64,000 nt of DNA, taken from Eucommia ulmoides (taxonomy: Eukaryota; Streptophyta; Magnoliopsida; Garryales; Eucommiaceae). Both the position numbers and the translations under genes were made by a program. Of the stretch, positions 1,073 to 63,700 are shown in pieces. The notes under the pieces were generated by a model. The model made no database searches. It was given only the letters and a program-made list of their open reading frames with translations, and was not told the DNA's origin. The stretch covers positions 1,054,001 to 1,118,000 of the forward strand of contig CM028336.1 in the NCBI GenBank assembly GCA_016647705.1, in the 5' to 3' direction. How positions within the stretch are numbered: position 1 is the first letter of the stretch; each line of letters starts with the position of its first letter.

Positions 1073-4000
1073 ATGCTTCCTAACCCAAATATGTCGATTA
1101 TTCACCATCATCATCTTCTTCTTCTTGTTCTACTTATCATAAAAACCATGGAAGGAGCAGCACAACACTGTTCTCCATCATCTTGCGGCAATCTTAAAAA
1201 CATTAGCTATCCTTTCCGCTTGAGAGGTGATCCCCCAGACTGCGGTCGTCTTCCGGAATTAGAACTCACCTGCACGAATAATCGTGCCATTTTGCATTTG
1301 AATTCAAAACCTTACTACGTGGAGGAGATTAATTACCAGAACTTTTCCATACGCCTAGTTGATCCCGGTCTCCAAAAGGGTAATTGCTCTTCTTTTCCAC
1401 AATCATTGTCCCTATATGAAGTCATATCTACAACCTTTGGGTTCGGTGTATATAACAGTGAGTATCCCCCTGGGTATGCCTACGCGAACCTTCCAGTAAT
1501 TTTTATCACCTGCAATAGAACCCCTGCCAATTCCTCTGTCCATTATGTAGCTGATTCTTGCGATAAAAACACGACCCATCCTTCTCCATCTTCCTCGAAT
1601 AGTTATTCTTATGTAGTGGTAGGGCCAAAGGCTACAATATCAGAGTTAGATTACTCCTGCAAACCCAGACTGGTGGCGTGGTTCTCATCTGATGCACCCA
1701 TATTTAAAAGTAAGAGTGGAACAATAAGCTCTTTTTCGGACATTCACGAGAGTTTGCTCTATGGGTTTGAGCTTCTGTGGTATCGCCAAACCATATACTG
1801 CAGACAGTGTGAAGCAAGAAATGGACACTGTCATTTGACCTATGACAACCAAATCACTTGCTTAGACACCTGCGATTTCCTCTATTTCGACATCCGTCCT
1901 ACGTTGCGAAGTATGTGATCAGCTTTTTTAGCATTTTGATTTTTTCTCGTATCCTAATTCTCACTTTGTCCTTGTCACTGTTCTTATATATATATATATA
2001 TATATATATCATTTATTTTTATTTTTATTTTTGTGGAGGTTACTTCAATTTACTCTTGCAATTAAATTTGAGTTTTCTGACATTTCTTCATTCTTGATTT
2101 ATGTAGATATGCGTCATCTATGGCGATGTGAGTGTTCCCTGCAATTAGTGATTTCTTTTTTCCATTCATATTTATATTCACTAAAAGATTTATCATAATT
2201 CTCACTTTCTCAATGTTAGTGTGTGTGTGTCTATTGTAGAGATTTAATTAAATTTGCTCTTGTAATTAAATTTGAGCTTTCTGACATTCTTCATTCTTGG
2301 TTTATGTAGGGATGCATACGTTATGGCGATGTGAGTATTCCCTACAATTAGTGTTTCCTTTTTCTCATTCATATTCATGTTCAATAGAAGACTTATCCTA
2401 ATTCTCACTTTTCCACTGTTAGTGTGTATGTATATATTGTAGAGATTTAATTAAATTTGCTCTTGTAATTAAATTTGAGCTTTCTGACATTCCTCATTCT
2501 TGGTTTATGTAGGGATGCATACATTATGGCGATGTGAGTATTCCCTACAATTAGTGTTTGCTTTTTCTCATTCATATTCATGTTCAATAGAAGACTTATC
2601 CTAATTCTCACTTTTCCATTGTTAGTGTGTGTGTGTGTATATATTGTAGAGATTTATTTGAATTTGCTCTTGCAAATAATTTTGAGCTTTCTGACATTCT
2701 TCATTCTTGGTTTATGTAGATAAGCTTGATCTATGGAAATGTGAGTATTCCCTGCAATTAGTGATTTCTTTTTCCCATTCATATTTATATTCACCAGAAG
2801 ACTTATCCTATTTCTCACTTTCTCACTATTAGTGTGTGTGTACTTGTAGAGGTTTACTTGAATTTGCTCTTGCAATTAAATTTGAGCTTTCTGACATTCT
2901 TCATTCTTGGTTTATGTAGGCAAGGGTCAGCTATGGCGAGGTGAGGGTTGCCTATAATTAGTGTTTGTTTTTTCCCATTCATATTTATGCTTACTCCACT
3001 CTCTCTCTCTCTTACTCTCTTGGTGTGTTTGTTTACACAGACTATTACCCATTGAACCGCAATATTATTGGTAAGATGGACTTTCTTATTTTCAAATATT
3101 ATTTTGTTTTAGTTGGCTATAAAAATAGAAGGAATGAAATTGGAGGATGGAAAAATACATTTTTCCATTGTTTGTTACCAACTGAAAATGGGAAGAAAAT
3201 TTGGATGGAAAATATTGCAATTTAAAACAATAATTGTGGAAGAAAATTGAAAATAAATTTTTGAATTTACTTTTTCTGGAAAAAAAGAGCATCGGTCCAC
3301 TTTCCAATCATTCCAACCAAGTGAACTTTTAGGAAATGCTAACATTTTTTTTTCCTTGTACAGTTTTAATCATTATTATCATTCTTTCAAAAAGATTTCT
3401 ATGCGGGATAATATTGTTACTCATACTATTGTGGTACAAATGGAGGAGAAGACATTTATCATCATTCGGCACGATTGAAGACTTCTTACAAAATCACAAT
3501 AACCTTATGCCCATAAGGTACACTTACTCCAATATTAGGAAGATGACCAATGGTTTCAAGGACAAATTGGGTGAAGGAGGGTTCGGTACGGTTTATAAAG
3601 CAAAACTTCGAAGCGGCCGTTTTGTTGCTGTCAAAACGTTGGGGAAATCGAAGGCGACAGGACAAGATTTCATTAACGAAGTAGCTACCATCGGTAGAAT
3701 TCACCACGTAAATGTGGTGCATCTCGTTGGCTTCTGCGCTAGCGGTTCAAAACGTGCTCTCGTCTACGATTTCATGCCCAATGGTTCTCTCGACAAATAC
3801 ATTCTTGCAAGAGAAGGAAATAATGTCTCATTGAGTTGCGAAAAAATGTATCAAATTTCGCTTGGAGTCGCCCGTGGGATCGAGTATTTACATCGGGGTT
3901 GCGACATTCAAATCTTGCACTTCGATATCAAGCCTCACAACATCCTTCTAGACGCGAATTTTGTTCCCAAAGTTTCTGATTTTGGGCTCGCTAAATTGTA

Positions 4001-4526
4001 TTCAACTGAAGATAGTATTGTGTCTCTGACTGCAGCTAGAGGAACAATCGGGTACATGGCTCCTGAGTTGTTCTATAAAAACATAGGAGGTGTCTCTTTT
4101 AAAGCCGATGTCTATAGTTTTGGGATGTTGCTTATGGAAATGGCTAGTAGGCGAAGGAATTTGAATGCGTTGGCAAATCAGACGAGCCAGATTTACTTCC
4201 CGTTGTGGGTGTATGACCAATTTATCGAAGGAAAAGAAGTGGAAATGGGTGCAACAACGGACGAAGAAAGGGAGATGGTGAGGAAGATGATAATCGTGGC
4301 GTCATGGTGCATCCAACTAAAGCCTAGTGATAGGCCTTCGATGAGCAAAGTCGTGGAGATGCTTGAAGAAGACGTTCAACTTCTACATATGCCTCCGAAA
4401 CCTTTTCTTTGTCCTCAGGACATGCCGACAGAAGAACAGAGAACAAACACAACACCATCGTCTGATTTTCCTGTCTCGTCAAGTGATTTCATATATTCTG
4501 TCACTTCAGATATAAACGAAAGTTAG
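1073..4526 (+). CDS. LRK10-like receptor kinase (GUB_WAK ectodomain, non-RD kinase), copy 1
   Basis: Predicted plasma-membrane receptor-like kinase of the LRK10L / At1g67000-like group. Proposed exons: 1073-1910, five 21-nt microexons (2107-2127, 2310-2330, 2513-2533, 2720-2740, 2920-2940), 3041-3070 and 3364-4526. All junctions are phase 1 and the product is 711 aa. Exon 1 gives a signal peptide (His run then LLLLVLLII), a GUB_WAK_bind domain ([24 protein letters not shown]) and a WAK_assoc-type end (YGFELLW...[11 protein letters not shown]). The last exon starts with a transmembrane stretch and KWRRRHL, then a kinase: glycine loop GEGGFG, VAVK lysine, HFDIKPHN catalytic loop, DFG and APE. 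HFD in place of HRD marks a non-RD kinase. The ATG at 1073 is used because it is also the first in-frame ATG in the second copy; Met at 1091 is an alternative. Ligand unknown. Microexon use is inferred from splice sites and phase. Confidence 0.82.
2107..2940 (+). repeat. Tandem microexon cassette array, copy 1 (five 21-nt exons)
   Basis: Five exon-intron cassettes of about 200 bp lie in tandem. Each has a branch-like ttctgacatt, a pyrimidine-rich stretch, the acceptor tttatgtag, a 21-nt exon and a gtgag donor. With the one base carried over from exon 1, the heptads read NMRHLWR, WMHTLWR, WMHTLWR, YKLDLWK and CKGQLWR. The following 30-nt exon (3041-3070) reads [10 protein letters not shown]. 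Every exon is a multiple of three in phase 1, so adding, losing or skipping a cassette keeps the frame. The heptads would lie just outside the membrane, between the ectodomain and the transmembrane helix. Confidence 0.7.
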
Positions 4527-13777: not shown

Positions 13778-15823
13778 ACCTCAGGCTCGCCTGTGTACGC
13801 CCTTTCACGAGTGGTTGTTGCGCCATCGTTGTTGTTCATCGACACAAAAGGATTTTGAGGGACACTGAGATTGTCATCTTCTCCTTCCAACATCTGAATC
13901 ACAGCTTTCATGGATGGCCTATTTACGGGGTACCATTGTATGCATCGAAGCCCAACAATCGTTAATCTCCTTGCAATCTTACCATCACACACTTCCTCAA
14001 TTCCAAGTCTGAGATTGTCCTCTGCTTCCAACTTCTTGTATATCCATTCCGGAAAGTAAACATCATCGTTACCCTTCTTTTCCTTCTTGGTAGTTGCTCC
14101 CACAATTTCGAGCAATAACATTCCAAAACTATAAACATCGGATTTGTAGGAAACGTTTCCGAAATTCCTAGAGAACACTTCTGGAGCAATGTAGCCCATT
14201 GTTCCTCTTGTTGCTGTCATGGACACAGCGCTTTGTTCCTTGGAGCACAATTTTGCCAAACCAAAATCCGAGATTTTGGGATTGAAGTTGCAGTCGAGAA
14301 GGATGTTTTGAGGTTTGATGTCGAAATGGAGGATCCTTTGGTCGCATCCCTGGTGGAGATACTCGATTCCTTTGGCTATGCAAAGAGAAATGTGGCGGAG
14401 TTTATCCCAACCGAGGGAATTGATCCGGTGTGGCGATTGTACGAATTTCGCCAAGGAATCGTTCGGCATGAACTCGTAAACAAGGGCTCTTTTGAACCCA
14501 TCGGCACAATACCCTACAAGGCGAACAATGTTTACGTGGTGAATTAGACCGATCGTGCTAACCTCGTTCACAAAATCTTCACCGTTTCCAGTAGAATTCT
14601 CAAGTACCTTAACCGCTACATAGATTTCATCCGACAACTTTCCTTTGTAGACCGTTCCGTAACCTCCTTGGCCTACTCTTTCCGAGAAATTATTGGTTAT
14701 TTTCTTGATATCCGCATATGAGTATCTTGTCGGTTTGAGAGCCTCGTAATCTTCCAAAAACTTTTCTATCTTCAATTGATCCTCTTTCTTCGCCTTAAGT
14801 GAGGTAATAAGCCAGTAAAGAAAGACAGCAGCTAGAAACAGGCCGATGACGGTACCTGTAAGTGCATTCATTTTCAGCTCCAACAATCTTAGACAAATGA
14901 ATTGGAATTAAAAGGGGAAGCAAAACTTTGATCACCTGCAATCTTCAATTTTTTCATGATGAGACCTGTTGAATAGTGAAAGTATACATACAAAAGGGTC
15001 ACATTTTCTGCTCATCAGCTATTATATTATTTCGTAGAAAGATGGAAATCAGAAGGCGAAGTGAATAATAATAAGTATAAAAATGAATGAATAAACCTCT
15101 CATTGATGGCCTGGGGAAGCATTCAGTTTCTTCTTGTGTGAGGCGGTCCTCCTTCAATCTACAAAACTTGCCTTTTGCTTCGCAGAGTCCACACGCTGGT
15201 TGGGACCAATTTAGTTCTATAGGAGACGAATCGTAAAATAGTCCAAATGGAACTGCTGAGATGTTGTACATTCGGCTGCATCCAACAGGCAAGTAATACA
15301 GTGGGTAATCAGAACTTACGACGTAAACTTGGTTACCTGGACTGCTTAGGCAAGCAACAGGCTCCCCATAATAAGTATTAGTTTGAATCATTGAGCAATT
15401 GATTATGGTAATATCAGCCGTATCCGTGAATTGGAAGGGGGAGGCTGAAAAATTTAGGTTAGGAAGCAATCTGGGGAGGCAGCCATTGATTTCGGAGATA
15501 AGTATCGACTGCCATTTGTAACCGATTTTCTTTACTTGTAGTTTCACGGAATTGGGGGGATTGGTTTGGTTGGCTGAGTTTGGAGATTTTAAGGGAAAGG
15601 GGAGGTCTAGCACGGTGTGCTTGGTTCGGGTGCAAGAGAGCTCAAAACCGGGGTAGCCACAGTCGGGTGATTGACGGTCTTTGAGCCAAAAGGGAAACCG
15701 GATATCCGGGCCATGATGTTTGTTGCACCTCATCACCTTGCAGTTGTCTTCTTGGAATGCTCCTCCTCCATACTCAGGCAAGAGCAGTACTGTGAAGAAC
15801 AACCAGACTTGGTAGATGGCCAT
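13741..15823 (-). CDS. LRK10-like receptor kinase (minus strand) with chimeric C-terminus
   Basis: Two exons read leftwards: 15823-15097 (signal peptide and GUB_WAK_bind / WAK_assoc-like ectodomain) and 14855-13741 (transmembrane segment and kinase). The phase-1 join gives ...PSMRG-TVIGLFLAAVFLYW and a protein of 613 aa. Ectodomain marks: IRFPFWL, DCGYPGFELSC, CGLCEAKGKFC. Kinase marks: GQGGYG, VAVK, HFDIKPQN (non-RD), DFG, YIAPE, NRPSMK. A 241-bp intron with gtttat donor and acttacag acceptor separates the exons. There is no microexon array, unlike the plus-strand neighbours. The last 11 residues (IFVNVYIVIFW) and the stop are encoded by repeat sequence beyond the duplication junction, so the native tail has been replaced. 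Likely functional as far as the sequence shows. Confidence 0.85.
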
Positions 15824-19501: not shown

Positions 19502-22500
19502 ATGCTTCCTAACCCAAATATGTCGATTATTCACCATCATCATCTTCTTCTTCTTGTTCTACTTATCATAAAAACCATGGAAGGAGCAGCACAACACTGT
19601 TCTCCATCATCTTGCGGCAATCTTAAAAACATTAGCTATCCTTTCCGCTTGAGAGGTGATCCCCCAGACTGCGGTCGTCTTCCGGAATTAGAACTCACCT
19701 GCACGAATAATCGTGCCATTTTGCATTTGAATTCAAAACCTTACTACGTGGAGGAGATTAATTACCAGAACTTTTCCATACGCCTAGTTGATCCCGGTCT
19801 CCAAAAGGGTAATTGCTCTTCTTTTCCAATACAATCATTGTCCCTATATGATGACATACCTGAAACCTTTTCCTACGCGAACCTTCCAGTAATTTTTATC
19901 ACCTGCAATAGAACCCCTGCCAATTCCTCTGTCCATCATGTGGCTGATTCTTGCGATAAAAACACGACCCATCCTTCTCCATCTTCCTCGAATGGTTATT
20001 CTTATGTAGTGGTAGGGGAAGAGGCTACAATATCAGAGTTAGATGACTCCTGCAAACCCAGACTGGTGGCGTGGTTCTCATCTGATGCACCCATATTTAA
20101 AAGTAAGAGTGGAACAATAAGCTCTTTTTCGGACATTCACGAGAGTTTGCTCTATGGGTTTGAGCTTCTGTGGCATCGCCAAACCATATACTGCAGACAG
20201 TGTGAAGCAAGAAATGGATACTGTGATTTGACCAATGACAACCAAATCACTTGCTTCGACACCTGCGATTCCCTCAATTTTCCTACGTGGCAAAGTATGT
20301 GATCAGCTTTTTTAGCATCTTGATTTTTTCTCGTATCCTAATTCTCACTTTCTCCTTGTCACTGTTCTTATATATATATCATTTATTTTTATTTTTATTT
20401 TTGTGGAGGTTACTTCAATTTACTCTTGCAATTAAATTTGAGTTTTCTGACATTTCTTCATTCTTGATTTATGTAGATATGCGTCATCTATGGCGATGTG
20501 AGTGTTCCCTGCAATTAGTGATTTCTTTTTTCCATTCATATTTATATTCACTAAAAGATTTATCATAATTCTCACTTTCTCACTGTTAGTGTGTGTGTGT
20601 ATATTGTAGAGATTTAATTAAATTTGCTCTTGTAATTAAATTTGAGCTTTCTGACATTCCTCATTCTTGGTTTATGTAGGGATGCATACATTATGGCGAT
20701 GTGAGTATTCCCTACAATTAGTGTTTGCTTTTTCTCATTCATATTCATGTTCAATAGAAGACTTATCCTAATTCTCACTTTTCCATTGTTAGTGTGTGTG
20801 TGTGTGTGTATATATTGTAGAGATTTATTTGAATTTGCTCTTGCAATTAAATTTGAGCTTTCTGACATTCTTCATTCTTGGTTTATGTAGGCAAGGGTCA
20901 GCTATGGCGAGGTGAGGGTTGCCTATAATTAGTGTTTGTTTTTTCTCATTCATATTCATGTTCAATAGAAGACTTATCCTAATTCTCACTTTTCCATTGT
21001 TAGTGTGTGTGTGTGTGTGTATATATTGTAGAGATTTATTTGAATTTGCTCTTGCAAATAAATTTGAGCTTTCTGACATTCTTCATTCTTGGTTTATGTA
21101 GATATGCGTGAGCTATGGAAACGTGAGTATTCCCTGCAATTAGTGATTTCTTTTTCCCATTCATATTTATATTCACCAGAAGACTTATCCTATTTCTCAC
21201 TTTCTCACTATTAGTGTGTGTGTGTGTATTTGTAGAGGTTTACTTGAATTTGCTCTTGCAATTAAATTTGAACTTTCTGACATTCTTCATTCTTGTTTTC
21301 TGTAGGCAAACATGTGCTCTGGCGAGGTGAGTGTTCCCTACCTATAATTAGTGTTTGCTTTTTCCCATTCATATTTATACTTACTCCACACTCTCTCTCT
21401 CTTACTCTCTTGGTGTGTTTGTTTACACAGACTATTACCCAGAAAACCGCAATACTATTGGTAAGATGGACTTTCTTATTTTCAAATATTATTTTGTTTT
21501 AGTTGGCTATAAAAATAGAAGGAATGAAATTGGAGGATGGAAAAATACATTTTTTCATTGTTTGTTACCAACTGAAAATGGGAAGAAAATTTGGATGGAA
21601 AATATTGCAATTTAAAACAATAATTGTGGAAGAAAATTGAAAATAAATTTTTGAATTTACTTTTTCTGGAAAAAAAGAGCATCGGTCCACTTTCTAATCA
21701 TTCCAGCCAAGTGAACTTTTAGGAAATGCTAACATTTTTTTTTCCTTGTACAGTTTTAATCATTATTATCATTCTTTCAAAAAGATTTCTATGCGGGATA
21801 ATATTGTTACTCATACTATTGTGGTGCAAATGGAGGAGAAGACATTTATCATCATTCGGCACGATTGAAGACTTCTTACAAAATCACAATAACCTTATGC
21901 CCATAAGGTACACTTACTCCGACATTAGGAAGATGACCATTGGTTTCAAGGACAAATTGGGTGAAGGAGGGTGCGGTACGGTTTATAAAGCAAAACTTCG
22001 AAGCGGCCATTTTGCTGCTGTCAAAATGTTGGGGAAATCGAAGGCGACAGGACAAGATTTCATCAACGAAGTAGCTACTATCGGTAGAATTCACCATGTA
22101 AACGTGGTGCATCTTGTTGGCTTCTGCGCTAGCGGTTCAAAACGTGCTCTCGTCTACGATTTCATGCCCAATGGTTCTCTCGACAAATACATTCTTGCAA
22201 GAGAAGGAAATAATGTCTCATTGAGTTGCGAAAAAATGTATCAAATTTCGCTTGGAGTCGCCCGTGGGATCGAGTATTTACATCGGGGTTGCGACATTCA
22301 AATCTTGCACTTCGATATCAAGCCTCACAACATCCTTCTAGACGCGAATTTTGTTCCCAAAGTTTCTGATTTTGGGCTTGCTAAATTGTATTCAACTGAA
22401 GATAGTATTGTGTCTCTGACTGCAGCTAGAGGAACAATCGGGTACATGGCTCCTGAGTTGTTCTATAAAAACATAGGAGGTGTCTCTTTTAAAGCCGATG

Positions 22501-22916
22501 TCTATAGTTTTGGGATGTTGCTTATGGAAATGGCTAGTAGGCGAAGGAATTTGAATGCGTTGGCAAATCAGACGAGCCAGATTTACTTCCCGTTGTGGGT
22601 GTATGACCAATTTATCGAAGGAAAAGAAGTGGAAATGGGTGCAACAACGGACGAAGAAAGGGAGATGGTGAGGAAGATGATAATCGTGGCGTCATGGTGC
22701 ATCCAACTAAAGCCTAGTGATAGGCCTTCGATGAGCAAAGTCGTGGAGATGCTTGAAGAAGACGTTCAACTTCTACATATGCCTCCGAAACCTTTTCTTT
22801 GTCCTCAGGACATGCCGACAGAAGAACAGAGAACAAACACAACACCATCGTCTGATTTTCCTGTCTCGTCAAGTGATTTCATATATTCTGTCACTTCAGA
22901 TATAAACGAAAGTTAG
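19502..22916 (+). CDS. LRK10-like receptor kinase, copy 2
   Basis: Tandem paralogue of the kinase at 1073-4526. Exons: 19502-20294, five 21-nt microexons (20477-20497, 20680-20700, 20891-20911, 21102-21122, 21306-21326), 21431-21460 and 21754-22916, all phase 1, giving 696 aa. Domain order is the same: signal peptide, GUB_WAK_bind, WAK_assoc-type Cys motif, heptad stalk, transmembrane helix, kinase. The ectodomain is about 15 residues shorter because the stretch between SLSLYD and YANLP is replaced. In the kinase, the glycine loop reads GEGGCG in place of GEGGFG and the Lys motif AAVK in place of [15 protein letters not shown] and APE are intact. The Phe-to-Cys change could weaken ATP binding, which is inference. 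The stop just upstream of the ATG fixes the start. Confidence 0.82.
20477..21326 (+). repeat. Tandem microexon cassette array, copy 2 (five 21-nt exons)
   Basis: Same architecture as in copy 1, with a different composition: [35 protein letters not shown], followed by the 30-nt exon [10 protein letters not shown]. The third cassette here has the same 21 nt as the fifth in copy 1. The fifth here has no equivalent there. All five are 21 nt, open, phase 1, with AG and GTGAG borders. Introns also carry (TG)n tracts of variable length. Confidence 0.7.
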
Positions 22917-26796: not shown

Positions 26797-29700
26797 ATGA
26801 TCGAAAACTTCAAGCATTCGTCGCCGTCAATGAGTGATTGCCGTCGAACGGCGTGTTCGAGTCCCGGTTCATTGACGGAAGTCATTGTCAACAAAGCGCA
26901 GTTTGTTCGCCGGAGAAGAATGGAGCTTCGTCAACGGAAATCGCCGTGTCAGATCAGATCCGAGATCGCCGACGAGGATTGTCGATCGCTATTTAAGAAG
27001 GTGATTCACGAGATTGATTCGAACGTCGAGGAATTTGAAGGTGATAAGTCGTCGGGAAATGACGCAGTTGTCGCCGGAACTTCGAAAGCGAAAAACGATG
27101 AAGTGATGGAGAATTCGCGGAGCAGAGCATGCTTGTCGCACGGATCTATGTCGGTGATCGGACGGAGAAGAGAAATGGAGGACGCGGTGACGGTGGAGCG
27201 AAGCTTTCTAACCGGAGACTCGGGAGAGTACGATTTCTTCGGCGTGTACGACGGTCACGGAGGGTCACGCGTTGCGCATGCTTGCCGTGATTGGTTGCAC
27301 CGGCTACTGGTTAAAGCGGTGGAAGAAGATGGAGGAGGAAAGGTGGACTGGACGAAGGTGATGAAGGCTAGTTTCCAAAAGATGGACGAGGAAATGAGCC
27401 GGCGTGGAGCTGCGGTGGCGACGGTGGGTTCTACCGCCGTGGTGGCGGTTGTGGGGGAGGAGGAGTTGGTGGTTGCCAACTGTGGGGACTCGAGGGCTGT
27501 GTTGTCACGCGCCGGTCAAGCCGTGGCGTTATCCAACGATCATAAGGTAAAATCAATGTCCCATTATTCATTTTTTTTCCAAGTTATTTACATGATTTTT
27601 AATCTTAATTATAAATATTTATAATTTTTTTTTTTTACTTTTTTTTTTAGAACAAAAACGGTAATACAGTAAAATCGAATAATGATTTTATGATATCAAA
27701 CAACTTTACTTGTTGATTCAATATACATTTTTGGTCTTAAATTATAATTTTTTAGAATAAAATGTGAGTTTCTTCCTAGAGAAATTGTTTGATTTTGAGC
27801 CAATTTCACTAGAAAACAAAACTAAAATTGTTAAGAATATGTCAAACTCAAAAATCAAAATTTTGAGTTTTTTAAGAAACGGATTTAAAATCGAACCATT
27901 AAATTTTATGTAAAATTAAAGGTTTTTTAATCTTATTTTATATATAAACAAATCAACTCAATTAACTCTTAGAAAAAAGTAATATATATAGTAAATATAT
28001 ATCTAAAATACCCGGTTATGTGGAGGTTTTTTATATATAAACAAATCAACCCAATTAATCCTTAGAAAAAAAGTAATATATATAGTAAAAATATATCTAA
28101 AATACCTGGTTATGTGGTTCGGTTTGTTACCATCCCACAATCAAAATTAAAACCGCTTCGGTTTTCAATTCTGAAATTAAAATCGTAACCAAAACCATTT
28201 AATTGGTTTTAAAATTGAACCGGTTTAGGGAGTGCAATAGAGAATCTGAGATCCGATGCGAACAATCAGTCGAAAGAGCAAAGCTTAGAGCCTTGACTTT
28301 CTAAATGATGAGTCAAACGCACTCACTCTAATGGCGTACCTTTTGCATGATCGGTCAGCGAGAAAATGGGAACAACGACTTTTAGTTTAGTTTAGTTATT
28401 ATCTGTTTGAGTTAAATTGTCATCCCTATTTCTTCCTCTAGACAAGAGTAGAAGGTGGTAGAAGGTGGTGGGCGATCGGTTAGAATAAAGTAAAAATTTT
28501 AAAATGAAATAAAACTAAAGTAGGAGGGGATGAAAAGACAATTAACCCCTGTTGATTTTATATTGTTCTCTTGACATTCAATCTTTGGAAAGCCTGATAG
28601 GTCTGATGAGTTGGGAAGAATTGAAGCCTGTGGTGGAAGGGTGTTAAATTGGAATGGGCAAAGAGTATTGGGTGTTCTTGCTACTTCAAGATCTATAGGT
28701 ATGTCTTACAAATTACTATCTTCTTTAATTCTTTACTTCTTTCTTTCAATACAAAACCATATTGTTGACTAATCCAACGATTACAGTAAAAACACAATCG
28801 AACCTAATGTCTGGGAGGTTCCAATTTAGTAATTCATTTCATTTATACAATGGTCTGAAAACTCTATGGTTTACACGGATGATTTGACTGCAAGAAAATA
28901 ATGAGAAACATAGAAAGCGTCGTCCTAGGCGGAAGCCACCATAGCAATTGTTCTGGGTTCCAATTCAATATGGGTATCAATAGTTTTAGGCTATAGTTTT
29001 TGGTTGTGCAAAACATATGGTTTATTGAATTTACCTATTGTCGGAATAATACTAATTTTAAAATCACGACGGGCACTCAACTACATATGGTTGGACCTGG
29101 TTAAATGTCCTTTTAAGTTCAGTGGTTAACTTTGCCAACGGGTTAGTGGTCAAACAAAATTAGACAATGTATCATGCATAGTGTTTGGCTAAGTTATGGT
29201 GAAATATATTGAGATTAGGTGAAAGGGTATGTTAATGCACAACGGTTCTGGCCATGCAAGGTCTCGAGAGGGTCAAATGTATGTGTTCTTACCCTTTGTA
29301 TGCAAAGATAATATTTTCGAGATTTGAACGCATGACCTCTCAGCCTACCATTGCTCCAAGGCTTACATTTCATATTTAAATTTTGTGTCAACCATATTTT
29401 TTTTATTAATTCACAGATATTGTCCAACACAATCAGACAATGTATCGTGCATAGTGTTTGGCTAAGTTATGGTGAAATATATTGAGATTAGGTGAAAGGG
29501 TATGTTAATGCACAACGGTTCTGGCCATGCAAGGTCTCGAGAGTGTCAAATATATGTGTTCTTACCCTTTGTATGCAAAGATAATATTTTTGAGATTTGA
29601 ACGCATGACCTCTCAGCCTACCATTGCTCCAAGGCTTACGTTTCATATTTAAATATTGTGTCAATCGAATTTTTTTATTAATTCACAGATATTGTCTAAC

Positions 29701-30563
29701 ACAATCAGGCAGGGTGTCGAGTACAATTTTTGACCGATTTAACCGTTTGTTGGAAGCAAAATCAGGCAAGTTGTTATGCATGATGTTGACTAATCAAGCA
29801 GCTATTGTAAAGTACGATCAGATAAAGTGTCAAAATAAAAATTACGTAAGATGCTAAAGTCATTAAGCCTGATTGAACGGTTATTATGAAAGCACAATCA
29901 TACAAAGTGTCAAAGCACAGATTTAGTTGAGATGTTAAAGTTGTTAAGCCAAATGCTTGACTAATTGCACGGTTATTGTAACACATAATCAATTGGTCAG
30001 GGTGGAACTAATAAGGACCCAGAGGGATTGGATCGAGCCTCCCTCAACGTTTTGAAATTTTTTGTTACAATCCCTATATTTTTAGAAATAATCAATTAAA
30101 ATCCTTTAAACTCCGCCGTCGAACAAGGTATCAAATACAAATTTAGTCGAAATGTTAAAGGAAGCAGTTTATTCAATCGTTCATCTAAAATAGAAATCTT
30201 TGTAAATTTCTCCTCGTTACAAGGTTTGGTTGGATTGTAGGAGATCAATACCTTAAACCGTTCGTGATATCAGAACCAGAAGTCACAGTAAACAAAAGAA
30301 TTGGCGCTGACGAATTTCTTATACTAGCGACCGATGGATTATGGGATGTTATAACCAATGATGTGGCATGCCGCGTCACGAGGAGGTGCTTAAATGGACA
30401 AACAAAGAGGAAATATCAAGGGACTGTACTTGAAAGAACGGGTGAGTTTAATCGGGCTTCAACAGCAGCAACGGTGTTAACGGAGTTAGCCATGGCTCGA
30501 GGGAGCAAAGATAACATTAGTGTCATAGTAGTAGAGTTAACAAAACCAATGTCAAATATGTAG
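26797..30563 (+). CDS. Protein phosphatase 2C, clade A-like, copy 2
   Basis: Exons 26797-27546, 28593-28698 and 30241-30563 give 392 aa, the same exon lengths as copy 1. All PP2C motifs are present: [82 protein letters not shown]. Exon 1 is almost identical to copy 1 up to about 27290, then differences build up. Exon 3 differs at about 20 of 323 nt, including changes near [10 protein letters not shown] and [10 protein letters not shown]. Introns are longer than in copy 1. Intron 1 holds a mitochondrial rRNA fragment and an internal repeat of about 90 bp (27940-28110). Intron 2 holds a 273-bp tandem duplication. Likely a working enzyme in the same pathway as copy 1. Confidence 0.9.
28226..28379 (+). 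pseudogene. rrn26: NUMT: fragment of mitochondrial 26S rRNA inside PP2C intron 1
   Basis: About 154 bp resembling plant mitochondrial large-subunit rRNA, with hallmark pieces gagatccgatgcgaacaatc, agcttagagccttgactttc and ggcgtaccttttgcatgat. It interrupts sequence that is continuous at the matching place in PP2C copy 1 (about 9665-9690), so it most likely entered copy 2 alone. It is spliced out with the intron. The rRNA match is from recognition, not a search. Confidence 0.75.
29163..29708. repeat. 273-bp tandem duplication in PP2C copy 2 intron 2
   Basis: The segment beginning gacaatgtatcatgcatagt at 29163 repeats from 29436 with few changes. Copy 1 has a single version (about 10450-10720), so the duplication followed the 18.5-kb event. 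Confidence 0.8.
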
Positions 30564-57731: not shown

Positions 57732-60700
57732 ATGACGATGCGTGGAGGCTCAGTTTGTTTGATTGCTGATCAGGCAGCATTATCACATTATGTAAGCACT
57801 TTATCCCTTCATACATGTAGAATTGTTGATGCATCATAACTTGGTGGTTATTTGTATATCCACAAATCCACTATTTTAATTTGATTTCAAACAATTATAA
57901 ACCTGTCTGTTTGAGAAGGCCTTCCATGAAGGGACTTCCTTGCTTGTCTTTTATCTGCTATTTGTTTTGTTTTCTTTCTTGATTTTGCTTCTCGTGTTTG
58001 AAATTTAGAGGCTATACTTTTTCTTCCTTTTTAATGGATAGTATAATATTTGAAACGAGGAATCTGAGATGAATTGTGTATTAGTGTTCAGGTTTCAATA
58101 AAATTTTAGTTGAACTTGTATTTGGACTTTGGAAGAATTCGGGATAAACATCAATATGTTCATTGTCCATCATTTTGAATCTTAATCAAGTACTTTTGTG
58201 ATGCTATAAAATGCAATTATGAGATAAAAGTAGCAAACATGGTGTTTTTAGTGAGATGGCCTTGCTACTATCCATGATTTTGATTTTTAATCAAATACTT
58301 AATTTTTTAAATGTGATTATGGAATAAACGTAGCCAAAATGATTTTTTAGTGAGGTACAACTTCGTTATTGTCCACGATTTTGAATTTTAAAGAACTACT
58401 CTCTTAACTCTATAAAAATTCAGGGATGAAAACAAAAACAAAATGATGTTTTTAGTCCGTTACAACTTTGCTATTGTCCGAGATTTTTTTTAAGAAAATA
58501 ATTCGTTAGCTTTGTAAAATGCAAATATGAGATAAAAGCTACAAAAAAATTGGTTTTATATTTATTGAGCTATAAGCCTATAACCTTGCTATTGTCCATG
58601 ATTTCAATTTTTATATAAATACTTCCTTAACTTTGTAAAATGAAATTACAGTGTAAAAGTAGCAAAAGTTGTATTTTTAATGAGTTATACCCTTGCTATT
58701 GTCTATGTTCTCGATTTTCAATCAAATATTTTCTTAACATTGTAAAATTAAATTATGAGATAAAAGCAACGAAAACAAGGTTTTTAGTGAGCTGTAGCCT
58801 TGTTATTCTCCACGATTTTGAATGTTAATCAGGTACTTGCCCAAATCTTTAAATGAAAAGATTGGATAAAAGTAGTTGAAATGGTATTGTAGGAGAATTA
58901 TATAACCTTGTTGTTGTCCTTGAATTTGATTTTAATCAAAATAATATTTTTTGACTTTGTAGAATGCAATAATGGGATAAAAGTATCATAAATGGTATTT
59001 TTAGTAAGCTATAGTCTTGCTACTGTTCACGATTTTAAATTTTAATCAAGTACTTTTCTTACGTTGTAAAATGCCATTATAAGATAAGGATAATAAAAAT
59101 GGTATTATTAGTGAGTTATAACCTTGCTACTATCCTCGATTTTAATTTTTAATCATTTACTTTCTTAACTCTGTAGAATTCAATTATTTGATAAAAATAA
59201 AAAAATAGTATTTTTAGTGATATAGTCTTGCTAATGTCCATGATTTTGATTTTAGTCAAATATTTCCTTAATTCTACAAAGTGTGATTATGGGATACAAG
59301 TTGGCGAAATGGTGTTTTTAGCGAGTTACAACCTTTTTATTATCCACGATTTTGAATTTTAATCATGTACTTTTTTAACTCTATACCAATAGAAGTGTGG
59401 GCAACGGTGTTTTTAGTGAGCTATAGCATTGCTATTGTCCAAAATTTTAGTTTTAATCAAATAATTCCTTAACTATATAAAAAGTATTTATGATAGAAAG
59501 GAGTGAAAATGGTTTCTTTATTGAGCTATAACTTTCCTATAGTCCATTATTTCGATTTTTATTAAAATATTTCCGTAATTCTACAAAATATAATTATGGG
59601 ATACAAGTAGCAAAAGTAGTATTTTTAGTGAGGTAAAAGCCTTGTTTTTATCCACACTTTTGAATTTTCATCGAGTACTTCTTTAATTCTATAAAATGCA
59701 ATTGTGGGATAAACAACAAGAATTTTGTTTTTAGGGAGCTATGGCCTAGCTATTGTCCATGATTTTGATTTTTAATCAAATATGTCCTGAACTTTGTAAT
59801 GGAATTATGGTGTAAAAGTAGCAAAAATGGTATTTTTAGTGAGCTATAGCCTTGCTATTGTCCACGTTTTCGACTTTCAATGAAATACTTCCTTAACCTA
59901 GTGAAATGAAATTATGAGGGAAAATAGCAAAAATGGTGCTTTTTGTGTGCTATAGCCTTGTTATTGTCCACTATTGTGGATTTTAATCAAGTACTTTCCA
60001 CACTCTTTAAAATGAAAAGATTGGATAAAAGTGGCAGAAATGATATTTGAGTTGAGCTACAATCTTTATGATTGTCCATGATTTTGATTTTTAATCAAAA
60101 TACTTTTTTACTCTATAGAATGAAATTAAGGGATAAAAGTATCAGAAATGTTGTTTTGAGTGAGATATAGCCTTGTTATTATTCACGGGTTTTGAATTTT
60201 AATCAAGTACTGTCCTATCCATGTAAAATGCAATCACGAGATAATAATGATAAAAATGTTATTTCTAGTGAGTTGTAGACTTGCTATTGTCCATGTTTTC
60301 GATTTTTAATAAAATATTTTCCTAACTTTGTGAAATGAAATTATGAGGTAAAAATAGCAACAATGATGTTTTTTGTGACCATAGCTTTGCTATTTTTCAT
60401 GATTTAGAGTTCCAATCAATTGCTCTTGTAACTCTTTAAAATGAAAAAAATTGGGTAAAGTAGCGTGTCGATGGTGAGGCCACCGGCGTCCGGCGAGGCC
60501 ACGTGGATGACGCGCCTCCGCTGGCAAGGGCGTCAGTGGTTGTAGCCGTCGCCGGAGGGGTTGCCGGTGGTCTGCACGTGGCGTCGACAGGGCTTTTGGC
60601 GGCTTGGCGCCGTCATTTGCGGTGTCAACAGTGGCGGTTGTGCTCGATACCCGTGTGGCAGAGGTTTTGTTGGGGCTCAAGTAGATATCTGGGATGACAC

Positions 60701-63700
60701 GCCACCATAATTATTTCCTTCCCTTAATTAAGTCATTGAATTTGGAAATTACCTTTTTCACCACTTTCCTTTTTGATACCTTCCACAGGTATTATTATTA
60801 GTAAGCTATAGTTTTGCTTTTGTCCATGTTTTCAATGTTGAATGAAATACTTCCTCAACACTGTGAAATGAAATTATGAGATAAAAAATAGAGAAAATAG
60901 GTATTTTTTGTGAGTTATAGCATTGTTATTGTCCATGATTTCAATTTTAATCAAGTGCTTTTGTAACTATATAAAATGAAAAGATTAGATAGAAGTAACA
61001 TAAATGGGATTTTAGGTGAGCTATAGTCTTTATAATTGTCCATGATTTTGATTTTTTAATCAAATTACTTTTTGACTCTATAGAATGCAATTATTGGATA
61101 GAAGTATCTGATATCTGAAATGTTGCTTTTAGTGAGCCATAGCATTGCTATTGTTCACAGTTTTGAGTTTTCATCAAGTGCTTTCTTAGCTATGTAAAAT
61201 GCAATTATGAGACAATAATAATAAAAAACGGTATTACTAGTGAGCCATAGCCTTGCTATTGCCCATGTTTTGAATTTAAAATATTTTCTTAACTCTGTGA
61301 AATAAAATTATGAGATAAAAATAGTGAAAATGGTGTTTTTAGAGCAATAGACTTGCTATTGTCTATGTTTTTGAGTTTTGATGAATTTGTTTTCATAACT
61401 CTTTAAAATGAAAAGATTGTATAAAGTAGCAGAAATGTTAATTTAGGTGAGCTATGGCCTTGATGAGTGTCCCATGATTTTGATTTTTAATTGTAATAAT
61501 TTTTTACTATGTAGAATGCAATTATCGGATAAACGTATCGGTAATGTTGTTTTTAGTGAGCTATCCTTACAATACTTCACGGTTTTGAATTTCAATCAAG
61601 TACTTTCTTAACTCTTAAAAGGCAATCATGAGATAATAGTAGTAATAATGGTATTACTAGGTAGCTATAGCCATGCCATTGTCCACGTTTTTTACTTTTA
61701 ATCAAATACTTTCTTAACTCTGTGAAATGAAATTCTGAGATAAAAATAGCAAAAATGGTGTTTTTTGTGTGTTATGCTTTGGTATTATCCAGGATTTTGA
61801 ATTTGAATCAAGTGCTTCCCTAACTCTTTAAAATGAAAAGATTGGATAAATAGAGCTGAACTTGTATATTTGGTTAGCTATGGCATTTATGTCCATGATT
61901 TTGATTTTTAATCCGATAATATTTTTGACTCTGTAGAATGAGATAATGGATAGAAGTATCGGAAATGTTGTTTTTAGGGAACTATAGCCTTGCCAGTGTT
62001 CACTGTTTTGATTTTAATCAAGTACTTCGTAAACTCTTTAAAATGCAATTATGAGATAGTAGTGATAAAAATGGTATTATTAATGAGCTATAGCCTTGCT
62101 ATTGTCCATGTTTTTTATTTTTAATCAAATACTTCCTTAACTTTGTGAAATGAAATTATAATATATAATTAGCGAAAATGGTGTTTATTTGTGACCTATA
62201 GGCCTGTTATTGTGCAGGATTTTGAATTTTAATCAATTGTTTTCCTAACTCTTTAAAAAGAAAAAGATCGGATAAAAGTAGCATAAATAGTATTTTAGCT
62301 GAACTATAGCCCTTTATGAATGTCCATGATTTTATTTTTAATCAAATTACTTTTTGACTCTATAGAATGCAATTTTTGGATAAAAGTATCGGAAATGTTG
62401 TTTTCAGTGAGCCATAGCCTTGCTATGGTTCACGGTTTTGAATGTTAATCAAGTAGTTTTTTGACTCTATAAAATGCTATTATCAATAAAAATGGTATTA
62501 TTAGTGTGCTATAGCTTTGCTATTGTCCATGTTTTTGATTTTCAATCAAATACTTACTCAACTCTGTGGAATGAAAAGATTGGATAGAAAATGCCAAAAT
62601 GGTATTATAGGTGAGCTATGACCTTTATGATTGTCTATAATTTTGATTTTTAATAAAATAATACTTTTTGACTCTGTAGAATGCAATTATGGGATGATAA
62701 TATTGGAAATATTGATTGTGAGCTATGGCCCTTCCTATTGTTCACGATTTTGAATTTACTTCCTGTACTTTGTAAAATGCAATTAAGGCATAAAATTAGG
62801 AAAAATGGTGTTTTTAGTTAGGTATAGTCTTGATGTTGTCCATGATTTCGATATATATCTAAATACTTCCTTGTAGAATGTAATTTTGTTGTAAAAGTAG
62901 CTGAAATGGTTTTATGGTGAGTTAGAACCTTGTTATTGTCCATGTTTTGAATTTTAATCAAGTACATCCTTAACTCTATAAAAGTAGAATTAAGGGTAAA
63001 AGTAGAAAAAAAAAATGATGGTTTTGGTGTTTTATAGCCTTACTATTATCCAAATTTTTAGTTTTTAATAAAATAATTTAAACTTTGTAAAATGAAAATA
63101 TGTAACAGAAGCAGCAAAAATGGTTTTTTTATCGAGCCATAACCTTGCCAGCATTCTTGATTTTGATTTTATTTATATACTTCCTTTATTTTATAAAATA
63201 TAATTATGCAATAAAAGGAGCAAGAGTGGTATTTTAAGTGAGGTATATTGTCCATGATTTTAAATTTTAATCGGATTCTTCTTTTACTTTGTGAAATGCA
63301 ATTTTGGGATAAACAACAAAAAGGGTATTTCTAGGGAGCTATAGCCTATTTATTATCCGTGAATTTGATCTTTAGTCAAATACTTCCTGAACTCTGTGAA
63401 ATGAAATTATGAGATAATAGTAGCGAAAATTTATGTTTTTAGTGAGATATAGTTTTGTTGTTGTCTGTGATGAATTTTAGTGAAGTGTTTTCCCAATTCT
63501 TTAAAATGAAAAGATTGGGTAAAATTAGCAGAAATGGTATTTTTGGTGAGCTATAGCCTTAGTAGTCCATGATTTTGATTATTAACCAAATAATACATTT
63601 TGACTTTGTAGAATTTGATTATGGGATATAAACATATTGAGTTATGGCTATATGCTAATTTCATTTTTTTAAATTTTAATCAAGTGCTTTCTCAACTTTT

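Follow-up and report, generated by a model that had tools for sequence, protein, structure and literature searches.

Two LRK10-like receptor kinase genes, genes A and B, each carry five tandem cassettes of 21 open nucleotides (nt) between the exon for the ectodomain and the exon for the transmembrane (TM) segment and kinase. On the whole, we consider it likely that these cassettes are coding microexons that would have originated from one short exon, been multiplied by unequal exchange, and come to encode a stalk of heptads. Judged from their sequences, the arrays are real and older than the split of the two genes, and they are probably functional. The window, that is, the whole stretch of 64,000 nt that was analyzed, corresponds to C12:1054001-1118000 in a genome of 946,670,599 bases (947 Mb).

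Anatomy of the cassette arrays

Gene A (1073-4526) and gene B (19502-22916), both on the plus strand, occupy the two copies of a segmental duplication, which lie about 18.4 kb apart. Identity between the duplicons is 97 to 99% in the first 9.3 kb and falls to approximately 90 to 93% beyond; a break in their alignment coincides with approximately two copies of a 273-nt tandem unit (29149-29708; 95% alike). Large arrays of a diverged unit of ~107 nt, organized in part into higher-order units near 215 and 421 nt, cover 58578-63589 (Tandem Repeats Finder). The minus strand at ~13843-15800 harbors another receptor kinase gene, belonging broadly to the family of genes A and B (kinase 49 to 50% identical), with an apparent 30-nt phase-1 juxtamembrane exon when read by eye.

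Exon 1 of gene A (1073..1910; start ATG at 1073 or 1091) encodes a signal peptide and an ectodomain with GUB_WAK_bind (PF13947; 68.5 bits against a cutoff of 29.4, E = 6.6e-19) and WAK_assoc (PF14380; 27 bits, exactly its cutoff of 27, E = 7.3e-06) domains. Its last exon (3364..4526) encodes the TM segment and a Pfam Pkinase domain (E = 4.6e-48), the TM segments of both genes being assigned solely by reading the hydrophobic run. Searched against solved structures with the kinase part alone, so that only kinases could be found, gene A matches plant receptor kinases, such as BAK1 and BRI1, among the best 60 of 2638 matches. With a GUB_WAK_bind and WAK_assoc ectodomain, a TM segment, and a Ser/Thr kinase of the receptor-kinase type, gene A has the domain set of an LRK10-like gene.

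The exons of both genes are ordered as exon 1, five cassettes, a 30-nt exon of phase 1-1, and the TM-kinase exon. In gene A, exon 1 runs in an open frame to a GTATGTG donor and ends in phase 1 at 1910. The cassettes, all on the plus strand, are A1 (NMRHLWR; 2107..2127), A2 (WMHTLWR; 2310..2330), A3 (WMHTLWR; 2513..2533), A4 (YKLDLWK; 2720..2740), and A5 (CKGQLWR; 2920..2940, with the strong donor GAG|GTGAGG), followed by the terminal juxtamembrane exon (3041..3070). Gene B comprises its ectodomain exon (19502..20294), cassettes B1 (NMRHLWR; 20477..20497), B2 (WMHTLWR; 20680..20700), B3 (CKGQLWR; 20891..20911), B4 (DMRELWK; 21102..21122), and B5 (RKHVLWR; 21306..21326), the terminal juxtamembrane exon (21431..21460), and the TM-kinase exon (21754..22916). 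The cassettes sit in tandem repeats with a unit of ~203 nt in gene A (2040..2989; 4.7 copies by Tandem Repeats Finder) and ~211 nt in gene B (20410..21379), so that exon and flanking intron are copied head to tail, the arrangement expected of tandem exon duplication. Repeat units are 86% alike according to Tandem Repeats Finder, and their ungapped identity to a reference copy ranges from 66 to 96%.

The sequence-only reading had described five-cassette arrays in the two genes, each cassette with an acceptor, 21 open nucleotides, and a donor in phase 1, lying between the ectodomain and TM exons of an LRK10-like kinase, and this description is borne out at 2107-2940 in gene A and at 20477-21326 in gene B. 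TGTAG directly precedes and GTGAG directly follows each of the 10 cassettes in the window, and all 10 heptads end in LWR or LWK, as had been claimed. Because exon 1 of either gene runs one base past its last complete codon, every cassette is phase 1-1. Models with five cassettes are open to the stop codon (711 amino acids in gene A from ATG 1073 and 696 in gene B from ATG 19502), as are models with zero, in agreement with the expectation that the frame is kept at any cassette number.

It had also been argued that 10 equal lengths are unlikely to occur by chance. Against a background of 122,080 nt, made up of the two window strands with both arrays removed, the module of branch point, AG, 6 to 90 nt, and GTRAG was encountered 15 times, and in none of these was the enclosed stretch 21 nt long. 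This part of the argument stands, but the copies are not independent: they share descent, and genes A and B stem from one duplication, which makes the equal lengths a weaker argument. Better evidence comes from the sequences of diverged paralogues and from the pattern of substitution.

Cassette paralogues and the origin of the unit

A scan of the genome for the cassette pattern, allowing at most one mismatch, returned 34 matches, compared with 11 for the reversed control. Sixteen of the 34 were exact, all of them inside five of the six cassette genes; the 18 matches with one mismatch included three cassettes, and the other 15, approximately the control number, were unrelated as far as seen. 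All 21 matches in a DNA search with one repeat unit (best candidates scored, 8 of 8) fell within the same six genes; cassette 1a_3 was detected through DNA similarity and by eye.

Cassettes number five in gene A, five in gene B, four in C16, three in C1a, two in C13, and one in C1b. All 20 are 21 nt long and free of stops, with their phase set by the homologous end of exon 1, and all 20 have the acceptor, donor, open reading, and phase of a coding microexon. Leucine is conserved in 20 and tryptophan in 19. A branch-point-like CTGAC lies ~26 nt before the exon in 18 cassettes and is replaced by TTGAC in both cassettes of C13. The random lengths or phases for which relatives were to be inspected did not appear among these paralogues from one genome. 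The earlier suggestion that the array could vary in copy number holds to the extent that paralogues within a single genome carry 5, 5, 4, 3, 2, and 1 cassettes at constant length and phase.

C1a, whose exon 1 is 80.8% identical to that of gene A, is intact: its frame stays open from start to stop across three diverged cassettes and a final 33-nt exon. C16, C13, and C1b contain frameshifts or stops in exon 1 or the kinase and look like pseudogenes, so that 7 of the 20 cassettes sit in decayed genes and the copy range among apparently intact genes is three to five. In the C13 paralogue (C13:4549500-4559000), the donor that follows the juxtamembrane exon is altered and the next intron is far longer, at ~1.8 kb; a partial copy with the TM-side sequence of this gene is located at C65:969273.

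A kinase search of the genome yielded 118 matches. Upstream DNA was fetched for nine close relatives, and four more distant ones (50 to 53% kinase identity) were excluded from the juxtamembrane comparison. An ectodomain match was present in three of the nine (r12b, r16b, and r12c). The fetched stretches of r12a, r65, r12d, r65b, r16c, and r65c contained no ectodomain match, and these genes were left out of the counts; in the viewed parts of the first five of them, no juxtamembrane exon was seen. At the position of the cassettes, a 39-nt and a 36-nt exon occur in both r12b and r16b and a single 39-nt exon in r12c, all multiples of three. The r12b gene reads open through both short exons over the fetched sequence and has a kinase free of stops; the TM exon of r16b is interrupted by a stop, and r12c is broken at several points.

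The 60 nt upstream of these long exons align to those of the 1a_2 cassette with scores of 55 to 58, versus 11 to 12 ± 6 for shuffled sequences. Within the 39-nt exon of r12b and r16b, GCCTAAGAAAAATATGGGAAG-GTGTAT can be aligned with a cassette plus the GTGAGT donor, 12 of 21 bases being identical, such that TATGG and GTGTAT fall in register with the cassette. The other three long exons match the cassette at 8 to 9 of 21 bases. The last exon of C1b, at 36 nt, retains a cassette-type acceptor.

These observations suggest that the cassettes most likely derive from one short juxtamembrane exon through an internal donor cut followed by unequal exchange. The ancestor would have had a single 36- to 39-nt exon of phase 1-1 encoding the stretch between the ectodomain and the transmembrane helix, and a donor arising inside this exon after 21 nt would have created the heptad exon. 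The resulting unit of ~203 nt (an intron with a branch-point-like CTGAC, a pyrimidine tract, a TGTAG acceptor, the 21-nt exon, and a GTGAG donor) would then have been multiplied and shuffled by unequal exchange to yield one to five copies per gene. The ectodomain tree groups A with B and C16, C1a with C1b, and r12b with r16b and r12c, leaving C13 alone; because this tree is rooted only at its midpoint, it is our inference that the long exon came first and was shortened to the cassette. This order fits the ~50%-identical kinase gene on the minus strand of the window, whose apparent 30-nt phase-1 exon was read by eye.

Variation within cassettes and exchange between arrays

Among the 12 full repeat units, the mean pairwise difference is 0.384 at exon nucleotides 1 to 12, zero at nucleotides 13 to 17, and 0.091 in the intron. 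The first 12 bases of the exon are thus ~4-fold more variable than the intron, and the Leu-Trp codons are nearly fixed. No intron block of 12 nt reaches 0.384, whether all units (0 of 182 blocks) or only those of genes A and B (0 of 186) are considered. Over all 20 cassettes, the exon differs more than its flanks in 161 of 190 pairs (means of 0.305 and 0.156). Copies within a gene are recent and not independent, and intron variation near the exon is lowered by constraint on the upstream splice signals. None of the 21 exon columns and 31 of the 190 intron columns contain gaps, but the absence of exon indels is a weak argument because the 31 intron columns come from about three places.

Variation by codon position across the 20 cassettes is 0.33, 0.36, and 0.23 for positions 1, 2, and 3. 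The ratio pN/pS is 1.8 for codons 2 to 4, 0.6 for codons 5 to 7, and 1.2 for all six, as summed over nonindependent pairs of the 15 distinct cassettes. With a pS of 0.24, silent exon sites likewise exceed the flanks (0.156) in divergence, and part of the exon excess is therefore not a matter of amino acids. Older exon types combined with homogenized introns may account for this part.

Individual comparisons vary. Cassettes A4 and B4 differ at 4 of 21 exon positions but only 1 of 130 flanking positions (P = 0.0013), and 5 of the 16 listed pairs show significantly more change in the exon than in the flank (P below 0.02). Four of the 16 (A1/16_1, A5/B3, 13_2/16_4, and 1a_2/1a_3) lean in the opposite direction without significance (P = 0.076 to 0.74). 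The 1a_2/1a_3 pair had been considered as a sign of constraint on the exon (33 of 124 flank and 2 of 21 exon positions differing) and was dropped, the difference being nonsignificant (P = 0.105); similarity is soon lost in the flank downstream of 1a_2, and the upstream 60 nt are identical at 56 positions.

Genes A and B were also compared region by region. Between their first exons, 19 codons are changing and 2 are silent (dN/dS of about 3.0), and the kinase exon has 7 changing and 6 silent codons, with one compared codon being a stop. At the nucleotide level, differences amount to 4 of 30 in the 30-nt exon, 5 of 100 in the intron preceding it, 14 of 1164 in the TM-kinase exon, 2 of 182 in intron 1, 3 of 293 in the last intron, and, in the flanks of the genes, 3 of 1071 on the 5' side and 0 of 673 on the 3' side. 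The two ectodomain exons (1073-1910 and 19502-20294) also differ by in-frame indels of 3, 39, and 9 nt, between flanks that are 99.7 to 100% identical where bases align. These differences fit a diversification of the outer part, and the pattern within cassettes suggests, but does not prove, diversifying selection on the first 12 exon bases.

The arrays of genes A and B exchange units, as indicated by one chimeric cassette and two exact correspondences. The exon of B3 and its near flanks are identical to A5, its downstream intron is identical to A3, and further upstream it again resembles internal units. B1 is an exact counterpart of A1, and B2 of A3, across the exon and 130 flanking bases. Such traffic bears on the selection step alone, since the excess of exon differences between A and B might instead reflect gene conversion with diverged paralogues, or old exon types with homogenized introns. 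The chimeric structure of B3 (A5-type exon, A3-type intron), the many sites in exon 1 where A and B differ and B matches other paralogues, the elevated differences at silent exon sites, and the 5 of 100 bases that differ in the intron after the last cassette are all compatible with such a history. Conversion should, however, bring flanks along, contrary to what is seen in A4/B4, and the preponderance of changing over silent codons in exon 1 also speaks against it. We think it somewhat unlikely that conversion or old exon types, and not selection, lie behind the excess.

Splicing, the proposed stalk, and known systems

The cassettes would be included in mRNA, and may be alternatively spliced. 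Donor strengths, as gauged by pairing with U1, are a point against inclusion: 14 of the 20 cassette donors are only moderate (-5.0 to -5.3 kcal/mol, a strength attained or exceeded by 7 to 9% of GTs), and 6 are strong, although the donors of exon 1 in genes A and B are weaker than either class (-1.8 and -1.9 kcal/mol). Such a mixture would allow partial skipping. A 217-nt spliced query from gene A returned no joined retrocopy from the genome, each of its five matches representing a single exon.

Combinatorial or tissue-specific alternative splicing could even be the purpose of the array, a possibility that is compatible with the coding-microexon reading. All cassettes are symmetric, leaving any subset in frame, and exons as short as 21 nt are prone to skipping when their donors are moderate. 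In A, B, C13, and C1b, the final cassette is one with a strong donor (about -10 kcal/mol), and plant micro-exons can be regulated, with GRP20 controlling some of them according to PMC10808074. But the last donors of C16 and C1a are not strong, B3 and the first C1a cassette have strong donors as well, and constitutive growth of an array needs symmetry equally. As the purpose of the array, regulated splicing has, in our estimate, the lesser share of the probability.

It is very unlikely that the array is an intronic minisatellite, i.e., a 203-nt repeat that expanded around a once-used exon, with signals kept by youth and with most or all cassettes skipped in mRNA: the close similarity of the units (from whose shared descent equal lengths follow), the open splice product lacking cassettes, the moderate donors, and the few indel events overall speak for it, but variation that peaks in exon nucleotides 1 to 12 and vanishes at 13 to 17, as in no intron block, the retention of 21 nt and frame in the intact C1a, and an upstream intron homologous to the one that precedes the 36- to 39-nt exon in relatives all speak against it.

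If the cassettes are coding microexons, each spliced copy would add one heptad, roughly x-M/K-R-x-L-W-R, to the outer juxtamembrane stalk. Because 21 nt are whole codons and seven residues make two turns of a helix, gain or skipping of a copy would preserve both the frame and the helical face, so that stalk length could change without breaking the receptor. A helical heptad would extend ~10 angstroms over about two turns, with the Leu-Trp face staying aligned. In each of the three arrays tested, the hydrophobic moment is greatest at 102 degrees, although a harmonic close to this angle is a property of every heptad repeat. The five-heptad stretch has a net charge of +7 in gene A and +8 in gene B, histidines uncounted. 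We think that this stretch is an outer, cationic, amphipathic stalk adjoining the membrane, in which the first part of the heptad would be diversifying, like the ectodomain, and Leu-Trp would be held.

A bolder proposal is that the stalk varies in both length and sequence, as a recombining heptad array whose count differs between individuals and whose selected residues serve recognition or pairing; we regard this as distinctly unlikely. Were it true, unequal exchange, and perhaps splice choice, would set the number of heptads between individuals while keeping the frame and helical face, the variable residues would be under diversifying selection alongside the ectodomain, and the juxtamembrane stalk would itself be part of recognition or receptor pairing in plant immunity.

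Like other LRK10L kinases, gene A combines a GUB_WAK_bind and WAK_assoc ectodomain with a TM segment and kinase, but the genes described here have one to five 21-nt cassettes in the place taken by one or two exons of 36 to 39 nt in the three relatives from this genome that could be read. The cassettes share with plant microexons their very short coding length, their set size and phase, and the ease with which annotation misses them (PMC8831610; MEPDB, PMC12409088). The exons treated in these two catalogues, grouped into 45 conserved clusters, are no longer than 15 nt, and neither main text contains the word "tandem" or "receptor" (PMC8831610, PMC12409088). Micro-exon genes of Schistosoma likewise have short exons, mostly of 15 bp and usually multiples of three, that are alternatively spliced, but as described in PMC10526429 they encode secreted parasite proteins composed largely of such exons, whereas here a single array is set in an ordinary plant receptor. 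The coding sequence of gene A is not largely made up of short symmetric exons, the cassettes contributing 105 nt of ~2.1 kb.

Fast skeletal troponin T (TNNT3), a muscle protein as opposed to a plant receptor kinase, has very short exons 4 to 8 that, to our knowledge, do not form a homogeneous repeat array. These exons are alternatively spliced and mostly of one phase class, and the abstract of PMC2447309 suggests exon shuffling. Mutually exclusive tandem duplicated exons (PMC9741552) have a comparable origin in tandem exon duplication, but one copy is chosen there, whereas here all copies could be joined. The sequence-only reading knew of no described system of this form in LRK10-like kinases, and our literature search agrees: among the top matches listed, no paper reports an array like this for any receptor kinase of plants, a weak absence given the thin coverage of subscription journals.

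Arrays of short exons and tandem exon duplication are thus already known, and the array described here would be a variant of tandem microexon duplication in a plant receptor kinase. Its growth, starting at a single exon of 39 nt and ending at five heptad cassettes, would be traceable inside one genome, and it would supply a natural series of receptor stalk lengths with which to probe juxtamembrane length in receptor kinases. The anatomy also suggests that annotation pipelines may drop cassette exons and report the ectodomain as joined straight to the membrane helix.
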